From: an uncultured Pseudomonadales bacterium
GTDB lineage: Bacteria > Pseudomonadota > Gammaproteobacteria > Pseudomonadales > Azotimanducaceae
Assembly (NCBI GenBank): GCA_958296195.1
Contig: OY282455.1
Span: forward strand, 2,666,001-2,730,000
Reading direction: 5' to 3'
Length of the DNA stretch: 64,000 bases
Below the pieces are notes generated by a model, which did no database searches, had not been told where the DNA came from, and worked only from the letters and a program-made list of their open reading frames with translations. Each line of letters begins with the position of its first letter. The stretch's first letter is position 1. Of this stretch, positions 1,310-7,576 are shown piece by piece. A program made the position numbers and the translations under genes.

Positions 1310-2521
1310 TCAGACAAACTCAATCGCTTTCTCAACTCCGGCCGCCAGCCGGTCCACGTCGGCGGGGGAATTATACAGGGCGAAGGAGGCGCGAATGGTG
1401 CCGGGGACGCCCAACCGCTCCATCAGCGGCATGGCGCAGTGATGGCCGGTGCGCACCGCAACGCCTTGCTGGTCCAACAGGGTGCCGAAATCGTGGGCGT
1501 GGCCGCCGTCGATCAGAAAGGAGATGATCGAGGCGCGCTCGCCGGGTTCGCCAATGATGCGAACGCCGGGGATCTGCTTGAGCCGGCTCAAGGCAAGGCG
1601 CACCAGCTCGTGCTCACGCTCCCGCAGCGCTTGGCGCGGCAGGCCGCGCAGATAGTCGATGGCGGCGCCGAAGCCGACGGCGCCGGCGATGTTCGGCGTG
1701 CCGGCTTCGAACTTGTAGGGCAACTGATTGTAGGTGGTCCCCTCTATGGCCACATGCTCGATCATTTCGCCGCCGCCTTGGTAGGGGGGCAGTTCCTCGA
1801 GCAGGTTGGCCTTGCCGTAGAGCGCCCCGATGCCGGTGGGGCCGAACATCTTGTGCGCCGAAAAGGCGTAGAAGTCGCAGTCCAGACGGCGCATGTCCAA
1901 GTCGAAGTGCTGCACGGCTTGGGCGCCGTCGATCAGGGTCATCGCGCCTTGGTCATGGGCCGCCTGAATCAGCGTTTCAATCGGGTTGACCGTACCCAGC
2001 GCGTTGCTGACGTGGCTCACGGCGACCAGCTTGGTGCGGGCGCCTAGCTTGGCGTGGAAGTCGTCGAGATCGATCTCCCCGGCCGGCGTTACCGCGCCGG
2101 CGACCAGCCGTGCTCCGCTGCGTTGGCAAAGCAATTGCCAAGGGACGATGTTGGAGTGGTGCTCCATTTCGGTGACGAGAATCTCATCGCCGGGCTTGAA
2201 GCGTTCGGTGAGGCTTGCGGCCACTAGGTTGATGCCCTCGGTGGTGCCTCTGGTGAAGATGATCTCCCGGCTTTCGGCGGCGCCGATCAAATCCTGGATC
2301 TTGGCGCGGGCGTTCTCCATTGCCGCCGTCGCTTCGTCCGCCAAGGCGTGGGCGGCACGGTGGACATTGGCGTTGTAGTGCTCATAGTAGTGGCGGATGG
2401 CGTCGATGACCGAACGCGGCTTCTGCGTGGTGGCGGCGTTGTCCAAATAGGTCAGCGGCGCTCCGTTGACCGAGCGGGCTAGGATCGGGAAATCGCTGCT
2501 GATGTCGTGCAAATCAGCCAT
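1310..2521 (-). CDS. sufS: Cysteine desulfurase SufS
   Basis: 403-residue PLP-dependent group II cysteine desulfurase that converts cysteine to alanine and supplies sulfur for cluster assembly. The PLP lysine is K224 in FSAHKMFGPTG, and the persulfide-forming cysteine is C362 in RTGHHCAMPL, the motif of the SufS rather than the IscS type. The length matches SufS (about 406). Group II enzymes need SufE, which is present downstream. The gap to sufD is 17 bases. Confidence 0.95.
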   Translation of the reverse strand: MADLHDISSDFPILARSVNGAPLTYLDNAATTQKPRSVIDAIRHYYEHYNANVHRAAHALADEATAAMENARAKIQDLIGAAESREIIFTRGTTEGINLVAASLTERFKPGDEILVTEMEHHSNIVPWQLLCQRSGARLVAGAVTPAGEIDLDDFHAKLGARTKLVAVSHVSNALGTVNPIETLIQAAHDQGAMTLIDGAQAVQHFDLDMRRLDCDFYAFSAHKMFGPTGIGALYGKANLLEELPPYQGGGEMIEHVAIEGTTYNQLPYKFEAGTPNIAGAVGFGAAIDYLRGLPRQALREREHELVRLALSRLKQIPGVRIIGEPGERASIISFLIDGGHAHDFGTLLDQQGVAVRTGHHCAMPLMERLGVPGTIRASFALYNSPADVDRLAAGVEKAIEFV

Positions 2522-2538
2522 TGGCCCGGTCCCCGACC

Positions 2539-3816
2539 TCAGCCGCTGGTTGCGGCGGACAACTGCTGAAGGAAGGAATTCGCCGCCTGTTCGGCGAAGG
2601 GGCCGCTTAAGCCGTCGCGCAAAAAGCCGATGCTCAGCAGCCGTTGCGCCGCCGCTGTCGGCAAGCCGCGGCTTTGCAGGTAGAACAGGGCGTCGTCGTC
2701 CAGGCGCCCGACAGTGGCGCCGTGGGCGCAGCGCACGTCGTCGTTGTAGATCTCCAGCTCCGGCTTGGTGTTGATGTCGGCGTTGGCGCTTAAGGCGAGG
2801 TTGCGGTTGGACAGGTCGGCGTCCGCCCCGGAGGCATGGGGATGGATGTGGATGCGCCCGTTGAAGGTGCAGCGGGCCTTGCCGGACGCCAAGTTGTGCT
2901 GCTTGACGCGGCTGACCGTGCGGTGGCCGATGTGCTCAATGACGTACTGCAGGTCCAGTTGCGCCCCGGCGCTGGCCAAGGCGGCGCCGGTGCTGCCGAA
3001 CCGAGCGCCGGCGCCGTGCAGGGCAACGCTTACGTCCAGGCGTTGGAAAGCCGCCGCTAGGCTCTGGTGGTTGAAGGTCAAGGAGGCGTCTTCGTCAAGT
3101 TCGGCGGCCAACAGGGACCAGCCTTCCCTGGCAGGCGCCAAGTCGGCGCGGGACCAGCGGACCTCAGCGGTTTGGGCTAAGAACAGCAGCACCACCCGTG
3201 TCGCCAGGGTGCCCTGATTGTCGTGCGTAGCTGAAGTGCCCTCTGACTCTGCTTCCGGCGCTCGTGCCGCCAAGACTTGCGGGCTGTTTACCGGTGCTTT
3301 GTTGCTGCGCCTCCCGCGCGTGGCTCGATCGACGACTTCTCCTAAGCGTTGTGGGCCGGAAACGTCGGCAATGGTGGAGGCGCCGGCGTCCGTTTCCTCG
3401 ATCTCCACCCGACAACCAGCGCCCACCCGCAGCAGCAAGGGTGCGGCCACGCCGGGCGTTGCGGCCGGCAGGCGCAAGGGACGGTCCGGCGTTTCGGCCA
3501 CCTCCGCCAGCCAGCCGTCTCCGGCTAGGGCGGCGACGATGCCGGCCAAGGGGTAGCGGTGCAGATTGATCCGGCACTCCGGCGGCGAGGGCAGGGCGGT
3601 GAAGCGCCGCACCCGCACCTGCTCCGGCGCATCCACAAGGGGCGAGCCGCGGGCCATCGGCGCATCCAGCAAGGCTTGGGTGACCTTGCCCAAGGGGGAG
3701 TACTTCCAGGTTTCCCGCGCCAGCTTGCCGGTCAGCGCCCGGCGGCAGCGGGCCAGGCCGGCATCGCCAAGCCATGCCGGCGCCTGCAGTGCCTCTAGCC
3801 CGATTTCGCCAGCCAT
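2539..3816 (-). CDS. sufD: Fe-S assembly scaffold component SufD
   Basis: 425 residues, the usual size for SufD, the non-ATPase partner that forms SufBC2D with SufB and SufC. The C-terminal beta-helix part carries the conserved stretch CAHGATVGRLDDDALFYL followed by QSRG and a helical tail. The N-terminal third and a low-complexity segment in the middle are poorly conserved, as usual for SufD. It overlaps the sufC end by 22 bases, showing tight coupling. Confidence 0.93.
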   Translation of the reverse strand: MAGEIGLEALQAPAWLGDAGLARCRRALTGKLARETWKYSPLGKVTQALLDAPMARGSPLVDAPEQVRVRRFTALPSPPECRINLHRYPLAGIVAALAGDGWLAEVAETPDRPLRLPAATPGVAAPLLLRVGAGCRVEIEETDAGASTIADVSGPQRLGEVVDRATRGRRSNKAPVNSPQVLAARAPEAESEGTSATHDNQGTLATRVVLLFLAQTAEVRWSRADLAPAREGWSLLAAELDEDASLTFNHQSLAAAFQRLDVSVALHGAGARFGSTGAALASAGAQLDLQYVIEHIGHRTVSRVKQHNLASGKARCTFNGRIHIHPHASGADADLSNRNLALSANADINTKPELEIYNDDVRCAHGATVGRLDDDALFYLQSRGLPTAAAQRLLSIGFLRDGLSGPFAEQAANSFLQQLSAATSG

Positions 3817-4543
3817 GCGTAGCCTCGTTCTTCGAGCGTTTCGGCCAGCTTCCTGTCGCCGCTTTCCACGATCCGGCCCTCCGCCAGCACATGCACGAAA
3901 TCCGGCACGATGTGGTTCAGCAGCCTTTGGTAATGGGTAATCAAAAGTACGCCGTTGTCGGCGCTGCGGAAGCGGTTGACGCCGGCGGCGACGGTTTGCA
4001 CGGCGTCTATGTCCAGGCCGGAGTCCGTTTCGTCCAACACCGCCAAGGTGGGCGCCAGCAGGAGCATTTGCAGGATTTCGTTGCGCTTCTTTTCACCGCC
4101 GCTGAAGCCTTCGTTAACGCCGCGCTTGAGGAACTCCGGGTTCAGGGACAGGCTGTCCGCCAAGGTGCGCACCCGCCGCATGAACGCCACGGGGGATTCC
4201 GCCGCTTGGCCGTTGGCCTTGAAATGGCTGTCCTGAGCGGCCTTCAGAAACTCCATGTTGCTGACGCCGGGAATCTCCACCGGGTATTGGAAGGCTAGGA
4301 ACAAGCCGGCTTGCGCCCTTGCTTCGGGCTCCTCTTGGCCCAACGGATGCCCCTTGAAGGCGATTGCTCCGCCGGTCACCTCGTAGCCCGGTCGCCCGGC
4401 CAGCACGTTGGCGAGGGTGCTCTTGCCGGAGCCGTTGGGACCCATGATGGCATGCACCTCCCCGGCCTCCATGCGCAGCGAAAGGCCCTTGAGGATGGCT
4501 TCGCCGCCGACGCTGACATGAAGGTCATCGACCTGCAGCAGGC

Positions 4544-4547
<4 letters not shown>
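3795..4547 (-). CDS. sufC: Fe-S assembly ATPase SufC
   Basis: 250-residue ABC-type ATPase of the SufBCD complex; ATP hydrolysis drives the scaffold conformational change. Walker A is GPNGSGKST (residues 36-44), the signature is [10 protein letters not shown] and Walker B is [12 protein letters not shown], the SufC-specific form. There is no membrane partner, consistent with a soluble ABC protein. Its ATG overlaps the sufB stop by four bases and its end overlaps sufD. Confidence 0.96.
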
Positions 4548-6001
<1,454 letters not shown>

Positions 6002-6220
6002 GGCGGATTCAAGCCCAAGCTCTGCTGCAAAGACGCCGCCCATTGTAACTTTGGTGGGCGGCAATGCCCAAGCGATGCCGCCGGCCAATGCAAGCCGGTG
6101 AACCGAAGCCTTGTTCGGGTATAGTTCACCGCCTGCATGAGCCGGCACACGCGGCGCAGGTTGGCGGGGTTCGGGCCTGTTGCGGCCGACTGCCTTGGAT
6201 TGCCTTACTGGAGGATGCGC

Positions 6221-6559
6221 ATGTCTGTTCCGGTGCCACATCTGGTCACCACCCATTCGGTTCCCGGCCGCGAGGTTCGGGAGGCCCTTGGCATCGTCAG
6301 CGCGGAATGCGTGCTCGGCATCAATGTTTTTCGGGACATGCTCGGCGGCCTGCGGGACTTCTTCGGCGGGCGCAGCGGCACCCATCAGAAGGCGTTGTGG
6401 GAGGCTCGGGAGACCTGCCTTAAGGAACTTGCCGAGGAAGCCTCCGGCCGGGGCGCGGACGCCGTGGTCGGCGTGGACTTGGACTACAGCGAGATAAGCG
6501 GCGGCGGCAAGGGCATGGTGCTGCTGGTGGCCAGCGGAACGGCGGTTCGGCTGCGGTAG
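6221..6559 (+). CDS. YbjQ/UPF0145 family protein
   Basis: 112-residue protein of the YbjQ (UPF0145, DUF74) family, small proteins that form pentameric rings and have no firmly known role; some are called heavy-metal-binding. Family features are the N-terminal [20 protein letters not shown], a variable loop, and the C-terminal [17 protein letters not shown]. The ATG at 6221 is preferred because GGAGG ends six bases upstream; another in-frame ATG lies at 6215. It is divergent from sufB and convergent with the selenoprotein candidate. Confidence 0.85.
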
Positions 6560-6580
6560 CGTCTGCAAGCGGCCGGGCTT

Positions 6581-7576
6581 CTACGGGTTGGTGGCGCCTG
6601 TCTTGGTCGATTGGGGATTCGTTGCAAACTGGCTGGCGACCGGCTGTTCCGGTAACACGCAGCCTGGGCAATCGCCCTTTGCTAGGTGGATGGCCGCTGC
6701 CGCTTCGTCCTCCGGGGTTTGGTGTTGCGGGGTTGGCGAACGTCCAATCCGGTCATCGGCTGGCGCTTCGCCCGCCTTGGGTGCTGGACGCATGGCCCGC
6801 TCCCTCCAACCGTCGCCGTCCGGCCAACGGTGGGGCAGGAGGCGGATTTCCCCTGGCCTGTCGATGGACTCAAGGGCGTTCAGGGCGTCCAGCATGATTC
6901 GGCGCTGCAAAGGCTTGTCATTGGGTGGCCCGGCGGTGCGGCCAAGGGGGAAGTCCAGAAACACCGCCCGGGGCGGCTTGACGGCTTGGGTGATCGACCA
7001 GGCGCAGGAAAGGGAGACGGTGGCGATGCCGCGTTGCTCCAGTTCCCTTGCGATCAATCCCACGGATTGATGGCAGACGGGTCAGACCGGCACCAGCAGG
7101 GCAACATCCACCTCGTCTTTTTGCAGGTGCTCGGCGATGGCCGGCGCCAGCCGCTCCCGCACCAAGCGGGTGGAGTAGATGCCGCCCATGAAGGCGTAGG
7201 CGTTCGGCCCCAACGCGCCGATGCGCCCCTCGGCGGCCAAGTTGCGCAGGGTCTCCAAGGGGAAGACAGCGTTCGGGTCCCGCCTGGCGTCTGTTAGGTC
7301 GTATGCGAAGTGGGTGGCCCGCAGTTCGCTGTTCGGCGTGTCCGAAGGGATGACGCGGAAACTGAAGTCGTCCCGGTAGTGGAAGGCCACTTGACCAACC
7401 TTGTAGATGCCGCCCGAGGCCACCAGCCCCAAACGGGATTGGCTCACGGGTTTCCGCAGCGGGGTGAAAGACGGCGGCTCGTCGTTACGAACCCAACGGT
7501 AGGGGGGGTAGCCCAAGTTGGCGTACTGCTCCCGAGTGCGGGCGATGTAATCCACCGGATTGTTCGGTTGGGACAT
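6581..7576 (-). CDS. GrdB/PrdB-like selenoprotein with in-frame TGA (Sec) codon
   Basis: Reading through one TGA (7084-7082) gives a 331-residue protein of the glycine/sarcosine/betaine/D-proline reductase subunit B-like family. The part before the TGA (164 codons) has the family blocks LGYPPYRWVRNDEPPSFTPL, GGIYKVGQVAFHYRDD and IPSDTPNSELRATHFAYD. The TGA falls in VALLVPV-U-PVCHQSVGLI, a redox UxxC motif; related proteins carry Cys or Sec at this site. The frame continues without a break to FPLGRTAGPPND and a C-terminal tail with a second redox-like motif, CPGC (6670-6659). A perfect hairpin 18 bases after the TGA fits a bacterial SECIS. No Shine-Dalgarno is obvious. The physiological substrate is unknown; no grd or prd partner genes are nearby. 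Confidence 0.8.
7053..7071 (-). promoter_or_regulatory. Putative bacterial SECIS hairpin
   Basis: On the minus strand AUCAAUCC-GUG-GGAUUGAU forms a perfect 8-bp stem with a 3-base loop that starts with G. There are 18 bases between the UGA and the loop. Bacterial SECIS elements are stem-loops just 3' of the Sec UGA with a guanine near the start of a small apical loop, so position and shape fit. This is seen by eye; no folding program was run. Confidence 0.65.

Follow-up and report, generated by a model that had tools for sequence, protein, structure and literature searches.

A predicted PrdB-like selenocysteine protein of an Azotimanducaceae bacterium branches apart from D-proline reductase PrdB and carries a C-terminal CxxC tail

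Does the in-frame TGA of a PrdB-like gene in an uncultured Pseudomonadales bacterium encode selenocysteine (Sec), and what kind of enzyme would result? The gene lies in a stretch of 64,000 nucleotides of contig OY282455.1, hereafter called the window, and is the one PrdB-like match in a single-contig genome of 4.31 Mb. GrdB and PrdB carry Sec in a UxxC motif and act with partner proteins (see PMC13188914), and a reference title in PMC1088965 places the pyruvoyl group of D-proline reductase on PrdA. The original prediction, made from the DNA letters, described a free-standing GrdB/PrdB-like selenoprotein with the motif VPV-U-PVCHQS and a CPGC motif at 6659-6670. Both motifs were found as described, the translation reading LVPV-U-PVCHQS with U as residue 165. 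The features of the gene are collected in Table 1.

Table 1. Coordinates, within the window, of the PrdB-like gene and its predicted features
Feature	Position	Strand	Basis
PrdB-like predicted selenoprotein gene	6581..7576	(-)	331 residues with TGA read as Sec; translation
PrdB-like core, residues 34-250	6827..7477	(-)	NCBIfam TIGR04483 and Pfam GRDB matches
Predicted Sec codon TGA (U165)	7082..7084	(-)	TGA in relatives; Cys/Sec in wider homologs
Cys168, putative resolving cysteine of UxxC	7073..7075	(-)	Cys in 87/87 alignment rows
Putative bacterial SECIS-type hairpin, 8-bp stem, GUG loop	7053..7071	(-)	fold, synonymous-codon null, covariation
Clade-specific C-terminal tail, residues 274-306, CPGC at its end	6659..6757	(-)	tail alignment
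CPGC motif (C303, C306)	6659..6670	(-)	translation; CxxC conserved in clade

Relatives were collected by one scan of genome contigs with six peptide patterns, none of which touched the TGA column. The scan returned 34 loci from the Pseudomonadota, Acidobacteriota, Actinomycetota and Chloroflexota, and TGA was present at the Sec column in all 34 of them. The wider homologs had either Sec or Cys in this column (CPVCHQ or CPICHQ), which agrees with the claim that the single in-frame TGA occupies the redox position. Family-like sequence had also been claimed for more than 80 residues past the TGA; homology extended for 86 codons, up to residue 250, after which the tail reached C306, and homologs, rather than ending before the TGA, ran on past it. 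In the comparison of the window gene with that of its nearest relative (L022), dN/dS was 0.15 before the TGA and 0.18 after it. Over all pairs compared, the ratio ranged from 0.15 to 0.27 before the TGA (5 pairs; dS was undefined for the window and L026), from 0.06 to 0.23 between the TGA and residue 250 (6 pairs), and from 0.19 to 0.48 in the tail (5 pairs). These ratios indicate that purifying selection persists downstream of the TGA.

In the RNA after the TGA we noted a hairpin, AUCAAUCC-GUG-GGAUUGAU, with the stem starting after 10 nt and the loop after 18 nt. The original prediction had a hairpin "18 bases after the TGA"; the hairpin stands, and the 18 bases are the distance to its loop, not to its stem. 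Its folding energy was not unusual: dinucleotide shuffling gave z -0.45, with values at least as low in 69 of 200 cases. When the same peptide was recoded with synonymous codons, the window gene gave p = 0.019 for minimum folding energy (MFE) and p = 0.003 for its 8 of 8 stem pairs. Against the same recoding, 25 of the 35 Sec genes showed enriched stem pairing (p <= 0.05); as the stem positions of this test are those folded in the window gene, it is biased towards that gene and its close relatives. By MFE, 18 of the 35 reached p <= 0.05. Of the 18 Cys homologs collected, nine were examined, with 0/9 by stem and 0/9 by MFE. The hairpin was weaker in the eight actinobacterial members, where the stem test was passed by none and the MFE test by four, with MFE p > 0.5 in three. 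In a further set of 20 Sec loci (19 of the window's family, one of its order) no more than 5 passed the MFE test.

Covariation was assessed in 50 Sec genes, comprising 13 of the 35 clade rows, all 20 of the same-family or same-order loci and 17 of the 20 other non-PrdB Sec rows. The five Sec PrdB rows have a different sequence downstream of the TGA and for that reason were not included, an exclusion that favours the stem. In this set 88.5% of stem cells were paired vs 72.0% after shuffling, 7 of the 8 stem pairs had changed on both sides, and the covariation score was 0.473 vs a shuffled mean of 0.151, with none of 500 shuffles as high. Pairing failed for the loop-closing pair in 23 and for the outermost pair in 11 of the 50 genes. 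Within the clade alone (27 of its 35 rows, 8 near-duplicates being left out) covariation was modest, with 2/8 pairs changed on both sides; a slide by one column covaried equally (0.102 vs 0.100) but brought just 50.5% of cells into pairs. Since an invariant Val codon fixes the GU of the loop in the clade, this GU gives no independent evidence there. A search of the window against Rfam returned no match.

The presence of sel genes had been proposed as a check, and selA, selB, the tRNA-Sec gene (selC) and selD were all found in the window's own genome (scores of 517.3 for SelA, 400.9 for SelB, 273.8 for SelD and 74.4 bits for tRNA-Sec), with selA, selB and tRNA-Sec in one run and selD nearby. 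SelB also scored above its cut-off in 34/34 genomes of the relatives. The sequence features by which a bacterial selenoprotein is recognised, namely UGA at the redox column, a SECIS hairpin downstream of it and selA, selB, selC and selD in the genome, were thus all found. Taken together, these data make it almost certain, as far as comparative sequence analysis can tell, that the host's SelA, SelB, tRNA-Sec and SelD serve to insert Sec at this UGA, directed by the SECIS hairpin next to it. The reading of the TGA as a true stop, a pseudogene scar or a sequencing error, which is compatible with the ordinary folding energy of the hairpin against shuffles, was rejected and retains practically no probability in the face of the same TGA at 34/34 loci from four phyla, selection after the TGA, a covarying SECIS and complete sel machinery. 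The SelD of this genome (L056:12820-15225, on contig C1 of the window genome G000), near selA, selB and tRNA-Sec, has a fused N-terminal domain resembling pyridine-nucleotide-disulfide oxidoreductases.

The next question was which family this protein belongs to. The NCBIfam model of PrdB, TIGR04483, matched residues 34-250 with 167.5 bits, below its cut-off of 300, whereas two true PrdB controls scored 421.5 and 424.7 bits. GrdB-type NCBIfam models scored 51-56 bits, all below their cut-offs; TIGR01918, for instance, reached 54.2 bits vs a cut-off of 65.45, over model positions 265-421 of 431. The Pfam GRDB model (PF07355) matched residues 80-162 with 38.3 bits, above its gathering score of 22, and sequence searches of the PDB gave no convincing relative. 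The name "GrdB/PrdB-like" is kept at the level of the superfamily and refined, the protein being nearer to PrdB than to the GrdB-type models.

In a tree of 87 proteins the clade of the window protein (clade A) had support of 99/93 and true PrdB (6 rows) 100/100, and the two stood apart; L084 and L085, with translations shorter than 190 residues, were dropped from this tree and from the tail count below. With 20 more loci (and with 20 clade rows and 9 near-duplicates left out) the support of clade A fell to 85/77, and a sister clade without CxxC joined it at 95/95. The window protein lay outside the PrdB clade in both trees. Clade A was gathered by means of the window protein itself, a bias in favour of its coherence. 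We conclude from these comparisons that the gene very probably encodes a genuine Sec protein that belongs to the GrdB/PrdB superfamily but not to the clade of D-proline reductase.

The window protein shares with PrdB the homologous core, the Sec and Cys of UxxCH, and the conserved residues D100, P106 and P210. It differs in length (331 residues vs 241-242, with about 90 extra at both ends, including the CxxC tail) and in the stem after the TGA, the same stem being absent from the five Sec PrdBs examined. With GrdB it shares UxxC and a distant match to the GrdB C-terminal part; in the GrdB models this match does not start before about position 264. As the NCBIfam scores fall below the cut-offs, the model match is partial and no GrdE-type gene (PF09338) was found in the window genome, the GrdB reading was rejected. 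A further comparison is with two alphaproteobacterial proteins annotated as "glycine/sarcosine/betaine reductase selenoprotein B family protein" (L075 and L076; 39-41% identity). They have CPVCHQ or CPICHQ at the Sec column and, like the window gene, no reductase partner among their annotated neighbours, but differ in having Cys instead of Sec, no CxxC tail and no hairpin enrichment. The Cys homolog from Roseomonas (L075:6890-8362) adjoins a SelO gene.

Partners were looked for as PF09338 genes (PrdA/GrdE type). None was found in the window genome, which is 98% complete, or in 33 of the 34 relatives' genomes, whose completeness is not given. Both PrdB-bearing control records were matched (5 and 3 matches), but the control genes adjoining prdB score only 78-84 bits, so that a far more divergent PrdA could escape the search. 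The sole clade genome with a PF09338 gene (G406:C195:56878-58110, 468.8 bits) is the home of L030. By comparison, prdA lies one small gene away from the annotated prdB in three plasmids, of Terrisporobacter, Ligilactobacillus and Enterococcus.

The original prediction had further stated that no reductase partners are near. Indeed, no part of a glycine or proline reductase was seen among the Pfam-annotated genes of the window (4 and 7 in two rounds), which encode a YbjQ-like protein, SUF proteins, an ABM-domain protein, an acyl-CoA dehydrogenase, a luciferase-like monooxygenase, a 2-hydroxyacid dehydrogenase, a cupin and a PIN-domain protein. Across the clade, no neighbour held a fixed place in different phyla, and most shared neighbours were limited to close relatives. 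The largest cross-phylum group, ABC-type ATPases at 17 loci, varied in distance and orientation, as did the other such groups, one of adh_short type (only the member at L030 being annotated) and two of small unannotated proteins; a group at 15 loci, on the opposite strand across the ABC genes, has the look of shadow ORFs. Annotated neighbours in the clade included SufB, a methyltransferase, a CTP transferase, a prenyltransferase, an M17 peptidase and a DinB/FGE-sulfatase protein, and those of the PrdB-like paralogs were common to two to four loci only; neither set gave a hint at the substrate. The term "free-standing" is thus supported genome-wide, by the failure to find PF09338 and by the want of a neighbour fixed across phyla. 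In the window and in L022 the gene immediately precedes a SUF cluster for iron-sulfur assembly (window 1310-6568; L022:6107-9485), an arrangement seen at none of the other annotated loci. At L051, a protein with DinB_2 and FGE-sulfatase domains (L051:3500-4894), presumably EgtB/SenA-like by its architecture, lies immediately upstream of the clade member.

We also followed the distribution of PrdB-like genes in the 97 relatives searched. Within the window's family, 55 of 61 genomes had a match, with up to six per genome, vs 1 of 36 genomes from other families of the order. The family matches, summed from the table, number 138, a tally in which an extra stop is given in several rows and some pieces may be counted double; three lack an in-frame stop, and two of these three are short adjacent pieces on one contig. 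In all 20 loci read out, which were picked from rows listing TGA, the TGA was at the active site. A sample of 398 genomes of the phylum yielded 18 matches, spread over 16 genomes, and 15 of these matches were without TGA; among 396 genomes from the phylum of the L045 genome, 69 had a match, and four of the matches listed were without a stop.

On this evidence the protein is very probably not a D-proline reductase: TIGR04483 stays below its cut-off, the clade is separate and the genome has no PF09338 match. A D-proline-type reductase with an unrecognised or very divergent PrdA would fit the retention of true PrdB residues such as D100, P106, UxxC and P210, as well as the PF09338 gene in one of the relatives' genomes. 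We consider it most improbable, given the positive controls beside the negative searches, the shifting neighbours, the position of the clade in the trees and the several paralogs per genome, which would be odd for one fixed complex. In the genomes searched no PrdA-type partner is recognisable, and the known pyruvoyl mechanism of PrdA would therefore not be available to the window protein, which is probably a different, uncharacterised selenium enzyme.

As to the tail, CxxC was present within the last 40 residues in 34 of 35 clade rows vs 0 of 52 others, the exception, L052, being a protein that ends earlier. In the tail alignment (11 rows) the residues D, R, R, P, Q, D, C and C were invariant. 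The 19 top-scoring further loci of the same family had CxxC in 19/19, having been ranked by a model that contains the tail and with several probably repeating earlier species. In a set of 20 loci of the same family or order, made up of lower-scoring ones and L151, it occurred only in L151, a protein placed with clade A. In the sister clade the tail is of PRYQ or PQYQ type and ends without cysteines. The absence of the motif from L052 and the sister clade indicates that the core does not need CxxC everywhere.

How, then, might the protein work? We propose, with moderate confidence in the scheme as a whole, a Sec protein of the GrdB/PrdB superfamily that would act alone, without PrdA, as a thiol/selenol reductase with a tail relay. 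With no PrdA partner recognised, Sec165 would itself attack a small electrophilic substrate, at a bond of C-X, disulfide-like or peroxide type, after which Cys168 would resolve the intermediate to a selenenylsulfide; these roles are suggested by the conservation of both residues. The C-terminal CPGC arm would then reduce the selenenylsulfide and pass the disulfide to thioredoxin, replacing a PrdC-type electron donor. Redox catalysis at UxxC is likely on these grounds. A role of the tail as an intramolecular redox relay is tentative, its single basis being that CxxC conservation is restricted to the clade. In two same-family paralogs of another class (L137:4001-4792 and L144:3965-4810), which lie outside the 87 alignment rows and have the motif UPLDHQ, Asp replaces the resolving Cys while the TGA is kept, so that this Cys is dispensable in some relatives.

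Alternatively, the protein may serve in selenium handling or peroxide defence and not as a metabolic reductase. Such a role would be compatible with the number of paralogs, with the conservation around UxxC and with the SelO gene beside one Cys homolog; we regard it as improbable, as no recurrent link to sel genes or oxidative stress appeared among the annotated neighbours chosen (10 + 9 + 10 + 10 proteins) and the conserved residues outside UxxC seem to fit a substrate-handling family. A further alternative concerns the tail only. The original prediction had offered a resolving or a metal site as roles of CPGC. CxxC could bind a metal (Zn or Fe) or act in docking or regulation, with thioredoxin or glutathione regenerating Sec165 directly. 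The tight spacing of CxxC with variable inner residues (CPTC in 17, CPGC in 7, CLTC in 3, and others) and the retention of the PRYQ-type tail, without the cysteines, in the sister clade would be in line with this. We hold it to be unlikely, yet the best of the alternatives: two cysteines with no other conserved His or Cys in the tail are thin for a metal site in one chain, and CPxC is a redox-typical sequence.

Returning to the reading of a PrdA-free reductase, Sec PrdB-like proteins outside the clostridia are not new in published listings. Sec-containing "proline reductase PrdB" with UxxC is listed with 42 genes for the Sargasso Sea (PMC1088965) and, under pfam07355, with 235 genes for GOS (PMC2398784), and both sources rank it with the commonest selenoprotein families in ocean metagenomes. 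The literature consulted (PMC2398784, PMC1088965, PMC13188914, PMC9312934, PMC1794560, PMC5029168, PMC1914089) also lists a Sec "proline reductase" for Anaeromyxobacter and a Geobacter. The marine proteins share UxxC and the habitat with the window protein and, compared by description, may include its clade; the two metagenome papers differ in using the proline reductase name, and the word PrdA is absent from both main texts (PMC1088965, PMC2398784). Our literature search of CC0, CC BY and CC BY-SA papers found no description of a PrdA-less, CxxC-tailed clade, nor of a family-wide expansion to as many as six paralogs per genome.

Tested at the genome level, PrdB-like Sec proteins occur where no PrdA is recognisable and where their paralogs have multiplied, which makes the assignment as proline reductase testable. 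It is conceivable, though somewhat doubtful, that a large class of partner-free selenoenzymes exists, in which PrdB-like cores in several paralog clades have moved off PrdA/pyruvoyl chemistry and a CxxC reducing arm was gained in the present one. In that case the name "proline reductase" may be wrong for many of the marine proteins annotated with it. The substrate of such a group is a tractable question. Genomes with many paralogs, nearly all of them with an in-frame TGA, are exemplified by G854 and G877 of the window's GTDB family, the window genome having its one match. One paralog class (L135, L140, L147, L148 and L152) combines UPxCT motifs with a long C-terminal extension, to total lengths of about 360-406 residues, and DUF3604 proteins (L134:1078-3120 and L149:5000-6925) adjoin two different PrdB-like Sec paralogs.
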